Source: Mycolicibacterium chubuense (GTDB taxonomy: Bacteria; Actinomycetota; Actinomycetes; Mycobacteriales; Mycobacteriaceae). Taken from it: DNA of 63,608 nt. Location of the stretch: contig NZ_JYNX01000032.1 of the NCBI RefSeq assembly GCF_001044255.1, forward strand, positions 47,985-111,592, read 5' to 3'. The position numbers and the translations under genes are program-made. Below the pieces are notes generated by a model, which did not search any database, was not told the DNA's origin, and saw nothing but the letters and a program-made list of their open reading frames with translations. Shown in pieces: positions 38,740 through 45,404 of this stretch; the stretch's first letter is position 1; the number at the start of each line of letters is the position of its first letter.

Positions 38740-39252
38740 GTGCCCGGCTTTCCTTCGTGGGCGGGTGCCGGTGCGGCCGATGTGCTCTGCTTCGCCGGGT
38801 CGTGGTTCTTCACCACCGCGGCCTGGATGCAGCTGCGGCTGGCCGACCCGGATGCGCGCGCCGAATGGTCCTCGGCGGCACTGCAATTCGTGGGGACGCT
38901 GCTGTTCAACCTCAGCACCGGGGCCGCGGTGTGGGCGCACGCCGTCACCGCCGAGCGCCGTTACGTGTGGGTTCCCGACGCCACCGGGTCGACGGCGTTC
39001 CTGCTCAGCGGGATTCTGGGCATGATCGCCGTCAGCGCGGGCCTGATCGACCTGCGTTCGCGCGAATGGCTGGCAGGCGCGGTGAACCTGCTGGGATGCA
39101 TCGCGTTCGCGGTGTCCGCGGTGGCCGCGTTCGTCCGCAAGACCGGGGTCACCGAAGACGAGTGGCTGGCCAACGTCGGCACGTTCATCGGCGCGCTGTG
39201 CTTCCTGGTGGCCGCGCTTGCGCTGCTGCCGCGCGCCGCTCAGTCGCGGTGA
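38740..39252 (+). CDS. YrhK-like four-helix membrane protein, N-terminus uncertain
   Basis: 170 residues from the first usual start (GTG 38740), with helices around WAGAGAADVLCFAGSWFFTTAAW, LQFVGTLLFNLSTGAAVWA, TAFLLSGILGMIAVSAG, and VNLLGCIAFAVSAVAAF. The same frame is open back to 38665 and encodes another helix (CWLFAIGSSFFALATV) with no ATG, GTG or TTG. The real start may therefore be an unusual codon such as ATA at 38665, or the gene has lost it. The function is unknown. It overlaps the convergent MFS gene by 13 bases. Confidence 0.65.
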   Translation: MPGFPSWAGAGAADVLCFAGSWFFTTAAWMQLRLADPDARAEWSSAALQFVGTLLFNLSTGAAVWAHAVTAERRYVWVPDATGSTAFLLSGILGMIAVSAGLIDLRSREWLAGAVNLLGCIAFAVSAVAAFVRKTGVTEDEWLANVGTFIGALCFLVAALALLPRAAQSR

Positions 39253-40472
39253 GCGCGAGCGGTCCCCGGCACCGCCGGGATGGCCAGCAGCGGGAACAGC
39301 GCGCACACCGCGAAGGCCGCCGGGTAACCCGCGACCCCGATCAGAGCGCCGAACAGCGGGGGAGTGACCCCGGCGGTGAGGAGCTGGGTGGTGTTCTGAG
39401 TGCCCAGGGCCCGTCCGCTCCAGAACGGTCCGGCGATCTCGGCGATCGCCGTGAAGGCCAGCCCGTTGTCCGACACCGTCACCACCGAGGCCACCATCAT
39501 CAGCGCGATGCTCACCGGTGAGTCCAGCCAATCGGTCAGCGCCAGCAGCGCCATCGCGGCGGCGGCAGCGACGGCGATGGTGCGGACGGGGCGCATCCGC
39601 GAGCTCAGCACGTCACCGGAGCGCTTGAGCACGGCATCCGACCACCTGCCCGCGCCGATCCGCCCGCCGGCGCCGAGGATCTGGGCGACGGTCACCAGCG
39701 CCCCCGCCGAGCCGGCGGACCACCCGCGGTCGGTGATCAGCCACGCGAGGGTGAACGTCCACACCATCGCCTGGGGTGCCACGAGCAGCAGGGACGTCAG
39801 GTGGATGCGCACCAGAAGTGACGAGGCGCGGTAGGGGTTGGCCAACTCGGCGTCGTCGGCCTCGGCCCGGGCCGGCCGCGGCGGGTCGAGCACTGCCACG
39901 GCGCACACCACCGCCGAGACCGCGCAGACGATGGCCGGGAAGGCCAGGGCGCTCGACACTCCACCCGTCTCGGCCAGCCGCGGGATCACCAGCGCGCCCA
40001 GGCCGACCCCCAGCGGCTGGGCGGTCTGCCGGATCCCCATCACCAGGCCGCGCTTCTCGGCGTCGAACCACCCCACCACGAGGCGGCCACTCGCGGTGTT
40101 GCTACTCGCCGCCGCCATGCCGCCGAGGAACAGGAAGATCCCCACAGCCACCAGGGAGTCCGCCGCTGCGGCGCCGAATGCCGCGGCCGCGGTCAACGTC
40201 GACCCGAGCGTCAGCACCACCCGCTCGCCGACCCGGTCGACGACGTACCCCCACGCGATCAGCGTCACCACCATGCCGAGGCTGGGCAGCGCCGACATCA
40301 GGCCGGCCTGCGCGAGGTCCAGCCCGCGCTCGCGGTGCAGCGTGGGTATGAGGAAGGCCACACCGTTGATGAACACGTTGGCGCACAACGTCGCGCCGAG
40401 GGCGACGACCAGCATCGACCATCGTCGCCCGGTGCCGATCGCCGAAGTGCTCACGGGGCCATGGTTCCACAT
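39240..40472 (-). CDS. Major facilitator superfamily transporter (Rv2994-like)
   Basis: 410 residues with about 12 membrane helices. The loop 2-3 motif is WGYVVDRVGERVVL. A central Glu/Asp-rich loop (DPPRPARAEADDAEL) and a second-half loop (GAGRWSDAVLKRSGD) are also typical. Substrate unknown. The ATG at 40472 is taken with CATTCT 7 bases upstream; GTG 40454 is an alternative. A pair of motifs with the LtbR consensus and the same 24-base spacing as upstream of leuC overlaps its promoter, hinting at export of a branched-chain or related amino acid. Confidence 0.88.
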   Translation of the reverse strand: MWNHGPVSTSAIGTGRRWSMLVVALGATLCANVFINGVAFLIPTLHRERGLDLAQAGLMSALPSLGMVVTLIAWGYVVDRVGERVVLTLGSTLTAAAAFGAAAADSLVAVGIFLFLGGMAAASSNTASGRLVVGWFDAEKRGLVMGIRQTAQPLGVGLGALVIPRLAETGGVSSALAFPAIVCAVSAVVCAVAVLDPPRPARAEADDAELANPYRASSLLVRIHLTSLLLVAPQAMVWTFTLAWLITDRGWSAGSAGALVTVAQILGAGGRIGAGRWSDAVLKRSGDVLSSRMRPVRTIAVAAAAAMALLALTDWLDSPVSIALMMVASVVTVSDNGLAFTAIAEIAGPFWSGRALGTQNTTQLLTAGVTPPLFGALIGVAGYPAAFAVCALFPLLAIPAVPGTARAHRD

Positions 40473-40475
40473 GCG

Positions 40476-40511
40476 TCTCAGAATGCTGAACTATCATCCC
40501 ATATAGTGAGA
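40476..40511. promoter_or_regulatory. Candidate LtbR/IclR operator upstream of the MFS gene
   Basis: TCTCAG (40476-40481) and GTGAGA (40506-40511) are separated by 24 bases. The right part, CATATAGTGAGA (40500-40511), agrees at all 12 positions with the corynebacterial LtbR consensus CA(T/C)ATAGTGAGA as I remember it. It spans the expected MFS promoter and lies 62-97 bases upstream of the FAH-family gene. Confidence 0.6.
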
Positions 40512-40572: not shown

Positions 40573-41361
40573 ATGCGCCTTGGTCGAATCGCCAGCCCCG
40601 ACGGGGTCGCCTTCGTCGTCATCGAGGGACCGTCCGAGAATCCTGCCGAGGCGGTCGCGCGTGAGATCGCCGAACATCCGTTCGGCTCACCGACCTTCAC
40701 CGGGCGGCAGTGGCCTCTGGCCGACGTTCGACTGCTGGCCCCGATCCTGGCGAGCAAGGTCGTCTGCATGGGCAAGAACTACGCCGCACACATCGAGGAG
40801 ATGGGCGGCGGCACGTTCGAGGATCCGATCATCTTCCTCAAGCCGAACACCGCGATCATCGGGCCCAACACCGCGATCCAACTGCCCGCCGACGCCCACC
40901 CGGTGCACTTCGAGGGTGAGCTCGCTGCGGTGATCGGCAGGCCCTGCAAGGACGTGCCTGCCGCTCGTGCCGCCGAGAACATCCTCGGGTACACCATCGC
41001 CAACGACGTCTCCGCCCGCGATCAGCAGGCCAAGGACGGCCAGTGGATGCGCGCCAAGGGCCACGACACGTTCTGTCCGGTCGGTCCGTGGATCGTCACC
41101 GACGTCGACCCCGCCGATCTGGAGATCCGCACCGAGGTCAACGGAGAGGTCAAGCAGCGCAGCCGAACGTCGTTGATGATCCACGACATCGGCGCGATCA
41201 TCGAATGGATCTCCGCGGTGATGACCTTGCTGCCCGGGGACCTCATCCTGACCGGGACCCCGGAGGGCGTCGGGCCCCTCGAGCACGGCGACACGGTCAG
41301 CGTCAGCATCGAAGGCATCGGAACTCTCACCAATCCCGTTGTGCGCAAAGGAAAGTCGTGA
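40573..41361 (+). CDS. Fumarylacetoacetate hydrolase-family protein (Rv2993c-like)
   Basis: 262 residues, two-domain FAH/HpaG family. Motifs are [14 protein letters not shown], the metal site around [11 protein letters not shown] (E-x-E type), [11 protein letters not shown], and [16 protein letters not shown]. Candidates are hydrolysis of an acylpyruvate or decarboxylation of oxaloacetate. Its stop overlaps the gltX GTG (GTGA), so it is coupled to a tRNA synthetase, an arrangement shared with M. tuberculosis but unexplained. Confidence 0.93.
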
Positions 41362-42959: not shown

Positions 42960-42964
42960 GCCAA

Positions 42965-43036
42965 TGGGGTATGGTGTAATTGGCAACACAGCTGATTCTG
43001 GTTCAGCCATTCTAGGTTCGAGTCCTGGTACCCCAG
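42965..43036 (+). tRNA. tRNA-Gln (anticodon CUG)
   Basis: 72 bases. Acceptor arms TGGGGTA and TACCCCA pair over 7 bases. The anticodon stem GCTGA/TCAGC has loop TTCTGGT, so the anticodon is CUG and it reads CAG. The T loop has TTCGAGT. CCA is encoded directly after the discriminator (43037-43039). It is the substrate of misacylation by GltX and amidation by GatCAB. Confidence 0.95.
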
Positions 43037-43099
43037 CCAACGATCGGATTAGGCCAGCTTTGTTCCCTGAGCTATGCTGTCCCTCCGAAACATGTTCTA

Positions 43100-43172
43100 G
43101 CCCCCGTCGTCTAGCGGCCTAGGACGCCGCCCTCTCACGGCGGTAGCGTGGGTTCGAATCCCATCGGGGGTA
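43100..43172 (+). tRNA. tRNA-Glu (anticodon CUC)
   Basis: 73 bases. Acceptor arms GCCCCCG and CGGGGGT pair with a terminal G-U. The anticodon stem CCGCC/GGCGG has loop CTCTCAC, so the anticodon is CUC, reading GAG. The T loop has TTCGAAT. CCA follows at 43173-43175. It has 63 bases between it and tRNA-Gln, so it is one transcript. Confidence 0.95.
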
Positions 43173-43177
43173 CCACC

Positions 43178-43212: not shown

Positions 43213-43914
43213 CTAGAGTCTGCGTGTCAGCGCGTCGGCCGCCGCCACCAGGTCGGCGGCCCAGCGCGCGCCCGGCCGCCGGCCCATCCGGTCGATCGGC
43301 CCCGAGACCGACACCGCGGCGATGACGGCTCCGCGCCCGTCGCGCACCGGCGCCGACACGCTGGCGACGCCCGGTTCGCGTTCGGCCACGCTCTGCGCCC
43401 AGCCCCGCCGGCGCACCTCCGCCAGAGTGCGGTCGGTGAACGCCGCGGCGGGAAGCACGCTCTGCTGGGTGGCTGCGTCGGCGTAGGCGAGCAGCACCTT
43501 GGCCCCCGATCCCGCGGTCATCGGCAGGCGCGTTCCGATCGGGACCGTATCGCGAAGACCGGCAGGCGGTTCCAGCGCCGCGACGCAGATCCGCGCGGTG
43601 CCGTCGCGGCGGTAGAGCTGCACGCTCTCCCCGGTCAGTTCCCGCAGGCGCGGCAGTACCGCGGCCCCGGCCGCCAGCAGCGGATCGCGGACGTGGCTGG
43701 CCAGCTCGGCGAGCGCGGGGCCGAGGCACCACTGCCCGTCGCCGTCGCGCGCGAGCATCCGGTGCGTCTCCAGTCCGACGGCCAGCCGGTGCGCGGTGGC
43801 GCGGGGCAGCGCCGTGCGGTCGCACAGATCGGCCAGCCCGCACGGTGACTCGGCCACCGCGTGCAGCACCGCCACCGCTTTGTCCAGCACGCCGATGCCG
43901 CTATCCTGTCTCAC
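43213..43914 (-). CDS. IclR-family regulator of leucine genes (LtbR/NdgR-like)
   Basis: 233 residues. The N-terminal winged helix is at about 8-60 ([40 protein letters not shown]). The C-terminal effector domain starts near 75 ([24 protein letters not shown] near the end). It is divergent from leuCD, as are corynebacterial ltbR and streptomycete ndgR. The GTG at 43914 has TAGTAT 6 bases upstream. A paired TCTCAC/GTGAGA motif covers both start regions, which fits repression of leuCD and self-control. Confidence 0.9.
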
Positions 43915-43944
43915 AAGGAGATACTAGCTTCCCAGAATGTGAGA
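43909..43944. promoter_or_regulatory. Candidate IclR operator in the iclR-leuC spacer
   Basis: TCTCAC (43909-43914) and GTGAGA (43939-43944) form an inverted repeat with 24 bases between. The right extension CAGAATGTGAGA matches 9 of 12 positions of the LtbR consensus. It covers the iclR start codon and ends on the first base of the leuC ATG. Confidence 0.55.
43921..43926 (-). promoter_or_regulatory. -10 element of the iclR gene
   Basis: TAGTAT on the minus strand, 6 bases before the GTG at 43914, inside the operator candidate. Confidence 0.5.
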
Positions 43945-45404
43945 TGGTCAAGATGGACAACGCGCACAGCCCGCGCACCATGGCCGAGAAGGTGTGGAGC
44001 GATCACGTCGTCGTCGAGGGCGCCGGCACCGGCGACGCCCGAGAGCCCGACCTGATCTACATCGACCTGCACCTCGTGCACGAGGTCACCAGCCCGCAGG
44101 CGTTCGACGGTCTGCGGCTGGCGCAGCGTCCGGTACGGCGCCCCGATCTGACCATCGCCACCGAGGATCACAACGTGCCCACGGTCGACATCGACAAGCC
44201 GATCGCCGACCCGGTGTCGCGCACCCAGGTGGAGACGTTGCGCCGCAACTGCGAAGAATTCGGCATCCGGCTGCATCCGATGGGTGATGCCGAGCAGGGC
44301 ATCGTGCACATCATCGGGCCGCAGTTGGGTCTGACGCAGCCCGGCATGACCGTCGTCTGCGGCGACAGCCACACGTCCACGCACGGCGCGTTCGGGGCGC
44401 TGGCGATGGGCATCGGCACGTCGGAGGTCGAACACGTCCTCGCCACCCAGACGCTTCCGCTGCGGCCGTTCAGGACGATGGCGGTCAACGTCGACGGCGA
44501 ACTGCCGCCCGGCGTCAGCGCCAAGGACATCATCCTGGCCGTGATCGCCCAGATCGGCACCGGAGGTGGACAGGGTCACGTCATCGAGTACCGGGGCAGC
44601 GCCATCGAATCGCTGTCGATGGAGGGCCGAATGACGATCTGCAACATGAGCATCGAGGCGGGCGCCCGCGCCGGCATGGTGGCTCCCGACGACACCACCT
44701 TCGAGTTCCTCAAGGGCCGCCCGCACGCCCCGACCGGTGCCGCGTGGGACGAAGCCGTCGCCGCGTGGCGTCAGCTGCGCACCGACGAGGGAGCGCACTT
44801 CGACACCGAGGTGCACATCGACGCCTCGACGCTCAGCCCGTTCGTGACCTGGGGGACCAACCCCGGTCAGGGCGTGCCGCTGGGCGGGTCCGTACCCGAT
44901 CCCGAGGAGATGTTCGACGAGGCGCAGCGCCAGACCGCCGAAAAGGCTTTGGCGTACATGGGCCTTCAGGCGGGCACCCCGATGCGCGACATCGCGGTCG
45001 ACGCGGTGTTCGTCGGATCGTGCACCAACGGCAGGATCGAGGATCTGCGGGTGGTCGCCGACGTGCTGCGCGGCCGCACCGTCGCCGACGGGGTCCGGAT
45101 GCTGATCGTGCCCGGATCCATGCGGGTGCGCGCACAGGCCGAATCCGAAGGCCTGGGCGAGATCTTCACCGCAGCGGGCGCGGAGTGGCGGCAGGCCGGG
45201 TGCTCGATGTGCCTGGGCATGAATCCCGACCAGCTCGCCCCGGGGGAGCGGTGCGCCTCGACGTCCAACCGCAATTTCGAGGGACGGCAGGGCAAGGGCG
45301 GCCGCACCCATCTGGTGTCGCCCGCGGTCGCCGCGGCGACCGCGGTGCGCGGCACCCTGTCCTCCCCGGCCGACCTCATTCCCGCGACGAGCCACGGAAA
45401 GTAG
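43944..45404 (+). CDS. leuC: 3-isopropylmalate dehydratase, large subunit
   Basis: 486 residues, aconitase family. [16 protein letters not shown] [42 protein letters not shown], and the 4Fe-4S cysteines in VGSCTNGR and [10 protein letters not shown] are all visible. It isomerises 2- to 3-isopropylmalate in leucine synthesis with LeuD. ATG 43944 or ATG 43953 could be the start, as both are in frame. A likely -10 is TAGCTT (43925-43930). leuD follows 7 bases later. Confidence 0.97.

Follow-up and report, generated by a model that had tools for sequence, protein, structure and literature searches.

A candidate LtbR-type tandem operator shared by leuC and an MFS transporter gene in Mycolicibacterium chubuense

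The window, by which we mean the whole stretch of 63,608 nucleotides of Mycolicibacterium chubuense DNA analysed here, carries a transporter gene of the major facilitator superfamily (MFS), a FAH-family gene divergent from it, and an IclR-family regulator gene that is divergent from and adjoins leuCD (by the order of the open reading frames; the leuCD names were given without a family search). The elements considered below are, by position in the window:

39240 to 40472, minus strand: open reading frame of the MFS transporter, 410 aa as listed, from the list of reading frames and a family search; the conserved start is codon 7
40476 to 40490, minus strand: box B of the MFS operator, 15 bp, TTCAGCATTCTGAGA, 21 bp from box A
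40497 to 40511, minus strand: box A of the MFS operator, 15 bp, TCTCACTATATGGGA, from pattern, matrix and box-pair scans
40573 to 41361, plus strand: FAH-family gene, named as in the first-pass annotation, divergent from the MFS gene and judged not to be a target of the operator
43213 to 43914, minus strand: IclR-family regulator, LtbR/NdgR-like, 233 aa, divergent from leuC
43909 to 43923, minus strand: box B of the leuC/iclR operator, TATCTCCTTGTGAGA, which holds the GTG start of iclR
43921 to 43926, minus strand: putative -10 element of iclR, TAGTAT, placed by eye and nearly invariant among leuC operators
43925 to 43930, plus strand: putative -10 element of leuC, TAGCTT, placed by eye, in a linker whose conservation is limited to leuC
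43930 to 43944, minus strand: box A of the leuC/iclR operator, TCTCACATTCTGGGA, from pattern and matrix scans
43953 to 45404, plus strand: leuC, named from gene order and the first-pass annotation

The regulator contains the IclR helix-turn-helix (PF09339, 44.8 bits; cut-off 22) and the IclR_C domain (PF01614, 93 bits; cut-off 24), and the transporter belongs to the MFS with 144 bits for PF07690 (cut-off 33.4). The listed start of the MFS gene, ATG 40472, is placed too far upstream by six codons; conservation points to GTG 40454-40452, codon 7 of the listed frame, where ATG or GTG stands in 69 of the 72 operator-bearing loci of the genus, the other three having ATG one codon earlier. Two tRNA-like sequences, recognized by eye, lie between gltX and iclR (window 42960-43175).

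The first-pass annotation had pointed to the pattern TCTCA(G/C)-N24-GTGAGA in two places, and it occurs exactly there, at 40476-40511 and 43909-43944, and at no third place in the window; shuffled sequences lead one to expect 0.01. As had also been proposed, the right half of the first site, CATATAGTGAGA at 40500-40511, agrees at 12 of 12 positions with CAYATAGTGAGA, which is said to be the consensus of the regulator LtbR; it is the sole exact match to that consensus in the window. A search for the 12-bp consensus as text returned nothing on the LtbR regulator among the literature matches listed. A better unit at both places is a pair of 15-bp imperfect palindromes, their starts 21 bp apart with a linker of 6 nt, so that the earlier N24 gap spans from one outer half of a tandem site to the other. 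On the minus strand, the MFS operator reads TCTCACTATATGGGA-TGATAG-TTCAGCATTCTGAGA and the leuC/iclR operator TCTCACATTCTGGGA-AGCTAG-TATCTCCTTGTGAGA. The available text of PMC8222616 gives the NdgR/LtbR motif as KTYCRSMWYSYGRRM, 15 bp; compared by hand, box A of leuC agrees with it at 14 and box A of the MFS gene at 12 of 15 positions, and position 2 is C, not T, in both. The left halves of box B differ between the two promoters (TTCAGC vs TATCTC). The left half had been described as touching the start of the minus-strand gene at both places: this is true of iclR, whose GTG lies inside the box, but not of the MFS gene, which starts 21 nt past it. Motif and layout are shared by the two operators and thereby tie the MFS gene to the leucine regulator, so that the central proposal of an LtbR-type operator with leuC geometry before this gene stands, as judged from sequence.

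Loss of the motif in related species had been named as the outcome that would speak against this proposal. We found it kept in 72 or 73 of 101 loci of the genus, which is widespread but not universal. These loci are the window and 100 fetched stretches, taken from 148 genomes, in which iclR and the MFS gene lie on one contig within about 16 kb among the matches listed. A first matrix was made solely from the 101 leuC/iclR operators and scanned over the 110 bp before the MFS gene, which makes this test free of circularity: the best 36-mer lay 38-43 bp upstream of aligned MFS residue 1 in 72 loci, at exactly -39 in 52 of them, and the scores split cleanly into -44.9 and above for these 72 and -57.5 and below for the rest. 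With a score for pairs of 15-bp boxes, whose matrix includes MFS boxes of the genus and whose count is thus partly circular, 73 of 101 loci carry the MFS operator, with a spacing of 21 bp in 72 and of 20 bp in one; L072, which falls below the gap of the leuC-only matrix, has two boxes 20 bp apart. The leuC/iclR spacer reaches a box-pair score of 8.8 or more in all 101 loci, and the maximum in 2893 control windows was 3.0. Since the control windows are mostly coding and underrate A+T-rich spacers, spacers were compared as well: the 28 MFS upstream regions of the genus that lack the operator score -21.1 and below, the FAH spacer in two genomes -27.0, and ten MFS upstream regions from another genus, g3, -18.9 and below. 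In the MFS set the information is concentrated in the boxes (1.17 and 1.26 bits per base) and falls to 0.32 bits in the linker, to about 0.17 bits over the 20 bp beyond box A and to about 0.55 bits over the 10 bp after box B; the linker at leuC is conserved, at 1.53 bits vs the 0.32 bits at the MFS gene.

Genomes with species names gave a similar picture: the leuC-only matrix detects the operator in 75 of 80, including M. vanbaalenii, M. vaccae, M. aurum, M. neoaurum and M. peregrinum. The nearest named genome is Mycolicibacterium chlorophenolicum DSM 43826, with 98% MFS identity. As 25 of the 80 share their MFS upstream region with one of the 101 loci (24 of these pass), the count outside those loci is 51 of 55. 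The failures are L142, L198, L199, L206 and L209, the last of which passes by the box-pair score. In the matrix scans the MFS operator was absent from two named Mycolicibacter as well as from the 28 genus loci, which cautions against extending the link to all mycobacteria. L214, L215 and L216 are non-syntenic extra MFS copies of about 64-65% identity and have no operator.

Outside the genus the arrangement recurs. Of 201 family genomes, 175 have a match to the MFS protein and 196 one to the regulator at E 1e-60, both counts including 15 genomes of the own genus. Scored with a matrix from the own genus alone, and hence without circularity, 35 of 35 genomes from 21 other genera have the two boxes before the MFS gene: 26 of 26 loci score between 11.3 and 41.0, where the highest of 671 control windows reached -4.4, and nine of nine further loci score 13.9 to 31.7, these having been scanned over 400 bp or over a whole locus of 400-500 bp while the control windows measured 175 bp. 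The 35 genomes were picked from those of the 201 that had listed coordinates, following a preliminary inspection of 15 loci of this kind; all 15 have boxes, and six of the 15 genomes are among the 35. Window shuffles, genus scans and other-genus scans, each set against its controls, led us to reject a chance origin of the sites.

The same comparison bears on the idea that the boxes belong to the core promoter and the ribosome-binding region and are conserved for the needs of transcription and translation, not as a regulator site. Their centres are A+T-rich, and within the genus the distance from the end of the operator to the start codon is nearly fixed, with 69 of 72 loci at 20-22 nt and the other three at 25 nt. 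Between genera, however, the extrapolated start lies at distances ranging from -15 to -92, whereas both the 21-bp spacing and the palindromic halves persist; moreover, the same boxes recur at leuC, and there are MFS genes without them. We regard this explanation as very improbable.

In genus g3, which has small genomes and which we guess may be Corynebacterium, a relative of the MFS protein at E 1e-30 occurs in just 10 of 151 genomes and, unlike here, none of the ten loci has boxes before it (three of them match from residue 20, 27 or 37 on, so that their upstream regions are less sure). The C. glutamicum gene cg1658, reported in the available part of PMC4353348 as 35.6-fold up in a strain whose parent lacks ltbR, was considered as support for the link and rejected, given the scarcity of such relatives in g3.

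In the own genome (5.9 Mb) the two operators are nearly unique. The core TCYCA-N5-TGRGA, itself drawn from the two window sites, occurs in three places: at the MFS site, at the leuC site and once on contig C59. A 36-position profile built from 47 operators (26 MFS and 21 leuC) finds the leuC site at E 2.1e-6 and the MFS site at E 3.8e-6 and no others below E 1, the only further match listed having E 1.08; both window sites belong to the training set, so what is informative in this search is that no others turned up. When a 15-bp pattern was allowed two mismatches, a looser search, it matched this genome 50 times and its reversed control 45 times, which is no excess.

The MFS operator falls within the MFS-FAH spacer, with 62 bp separating its near end from the FAH start, and it had been suggested that the FAH-gltX operon could also respond to it. 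Taken further, the site might mainly control this divergent operon, with the MFS gene merely adjoining. Two genomes speak against this: in G227 and G293 the MFS gene lies away from FAH and the FAH start can be read, and there FAH is bare (score -27.0) but the relocated MFS gene has an operator (20.8 in each). In G150 and G288 the MFS gene is likewise elsewhere, with its operator. The operator thus travels with the MFS gene; we rejected the site as a FAH-gltX operator, and control mainly of that operon seems to us a most improbable reading. The operator is also present at a distance from the regulator gene: the MFS gene is unlinked from iclR yet boxed in G227 and G293 (over 400 kb), in G150 and G288 (over 1.6 Mb) and in G153 (46 kb).

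Which protein reads the MFS operator was approached by counting IclR_C matches, as the count of HTH_IclR is too unspecific. The own genome has 12 such matches, the left halves of box B differ between the two promoters, and similar operators precede an unrelated methyltransferase gene in other mycobacteria, all of which would suit a different IclR-family regulator with overlapping DNA specificity. Nine genomes were searched, and in five of them (G002, G032, G044, G148, G224) IclR_C is matched once, by the LtbR-like gene, which in G148 was identified by a leuC-type operator directly before it; G327 (79% complete) gave many matches. The MFS operator is absent in G032 but kept in G002, G044, G148 and G224, where the LtbR-like protein is the sole IclR_C protein found and hence the likely reader, as far as gene content can tell. 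In the family the LtbR-like protein is found in 196 and the MFS protein in 175 of 201 genomes at E 1e-60. We therefore consider a different IclR-family reader unlikely; reading by a non-IclR protein is possible.

Our preferred reading, which we consider highly probable, is that the LtbR/NdgR-type IclR protein encoded at 43213-43914 binds both tandem operators and most likely represses, the MFS gene being co-regulated with leuCD and its product most likely being an organic-anion carrier. Two dimers, sitting side by side on one face of the DNA, would occupy the 15-bp boxes with their 21-bp spacing, in the iclR-leuC spacer as well as before the MFS gene. The iclR start codon and both putative -10 elements lie under the boxes at leuC/iclR, and LtbR bound there would block both promoters and the start of its own gene. 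The MFS boxes span 36 bp, with 21 nt between them and the start codon; a scan with the consensus sigma-70 promoter found none near this site, and a -10 element could not be placed for the MFS gene. Binding would most likely repress, by blocking RNA polymerase, as suggested by the position of the boxes over the -10 elements and the start, and the MFS gene would thus respond together with leuCD. Repression is likely from position and by analogy with Corynebacterium, where LtbR is said to repress genes of leucine biosynthesis (PMC4353348, available part); for NdgR, its orthologue in Streptomyces, the available part of PMC10331944 describes activation of leuCD, which leaves the sign less sure. The literature surveyed, including what is available of PMC10331944, offered no lead to the effector of the regulator.

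The predicted structure of the MFS protein (pLDDT 87.2, pTM 0.87; residues 1-10 have low pLDDT and are poorly ordered) was compared with known structures, and the 50 PDB matches listed are MFS proteins. SLC37A4, DgoT and OxlT hold ranks 1, 2 and 4 (OxlT with TM 0.82/0.86), and sialin and MCT1 are also found, beside NorA and FLVCR; identity in the named matches is 13-20%. Among sequence matches of known structure SLC37A4 is best, followed by SV2A, with GlpT and DgoT further down. The NCBIfam models show weak similarity to galactonate, lactate and oxalate/formate carriers, the last two over most of the length, but scores stay far below the curated cut-offs: 75.3 vs 395 bits for galactonate (TIGR00893), 33.7 vs 374.85 for oxalate/formate (TIGR00890) and 45.3 vs 320 for lactate (NF049980). 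The protein thus resembles organic-anion carriers such as OxlT, DgoT, SLC37A4, sialin and MCT1 in its top structural matches and its weak family similarity, and differs from them in these low scores and in that NorA and FLVCR, which do not carry organic anions, also rank high. An organic-anion carrier is our best guess from model and sequence, and its cargo would most likely be an acid of the leucine pathway or a related metabolite. The protein had been suggested to be an exporter of an amino acid or keto acid; direction would depend on the signal, and this label did not derive from evidence. If the regulator represses with leucine as signal, the transporter would be made when leucine is short, favouring uptake, and if a pathway acid is the inducer, export would be as likely.

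On a tree of 58 MFS proteins, which has long branches of unsure placement, presence of the operator requires three changes, against a mean of 18.3 after shuffling (0 of 500 shuffles as low). The simplest account is an operator that is old in the family, with losses in the extra copies L214-L216, in the two named Mycolicibacter and in a group of genomes of the genus that we label slow-grower-like (our own label, not one assigned by species name).

LtbR of Corynebacterium glutamicum acts on leucine and tryptophan genes, with leuB and trp among its targets. The regulator described here resembles it in lying, as an IclR-family gene, beside leuCD, and differs from it in that the MFS gene carries a tandem site and leuB does not: searching at the level of tandem sites, we found none before leuB or serA in the window, and no third site below E 1 in the own genome. 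LtbR orthologues adjoin and regulate leuCD, and NdgR of Streptomyces coelicolor and AreB of S. clavuligerus recognize a 15-bp imperfect palindrome and have ndgR-leuC as a target (available text of PMC4340878); palindrome and regulator-leuC target are alike here. In that source the ChIP regulon of NdgR comprises 34 genes, including ilv, leu, met and cys genes, and ABC transporter subunits are tabled; the words MFS, permease and efflux appear nowhere in its main text, so that an MFS gene among the targets sets the present case apart from the NdgR regulon as described there. Tandem IclR-family palindromes with 18-22 nt between centres have been predicted in 94 orthologous groups (PMC8222616, available part). 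The spacing of 21 in the window, and of 21 in 72 and 20 in one of the 73 genus loci, falls within this range; the layout is that of tandem IclR-family operators generally, and only the target gene is new. Titles and abstract openings on Rv2994, on Rv2989/IclR and the M. smegmatis loci, and on LtbR in mycobacteria did not name the link among the matches listed; the supplementary regulon of PMC8222616 may list it.

As read from its operator, the MFS gene would be a new target, whereas the regulator is of a known kind. Most of the mycobacteria examined, and many related genera, retain the pairing, which indicates that the transporter very probably serves the leucine pathway. An MFS protein present in 175 of 201 family genomes, with no assigned substrate among the literature matches listed, would thereby gain a pathway and a regulator: what was an MFS protein of unspecified cargo comes with a short list of testable substrates and could provide a natural reporter for the effector of the regulator. 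More tentatively, and with rather more doubt than trust, one may imagine that in this lineage LtbR retains strong operators only at leuCD (isopropylmalate isomerase) and at the gene of one organic-anion carrier, its regulon having shrunk to these, that the regulator senses the substrate of leuCD or another acid of the pathway (2-isopropylmalate or a branched keto acid), and that the carrier is a valve of the leucine pathway which moves that acid and was later freed from this control in some mycobacterial lineages.

Two further observations concern sites at other genes. In nine of 60 genus genomes (L365-L373) no site at the MFS gene is detected by the profile; its second match there is a tandem operator that closely precedes a gene for a methyltransferase of about 270 aa, behind a D-Ala-D-Ala dipeptidase-like gene (domains from L367 only; the protein motif GHHES is present in 9 of 9). 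Such boxes are therefore not confined to leucine genes, and the same regulator may have acquired the methyltransferase gene as a new target. In other genera, weak profile matches away from iclR and the MFS gene (for example G173:C1:274374, G239:C15:315574, G210:C1:1245279, G206:C12:404645 and G153:C37:32089) mark possible further targets.
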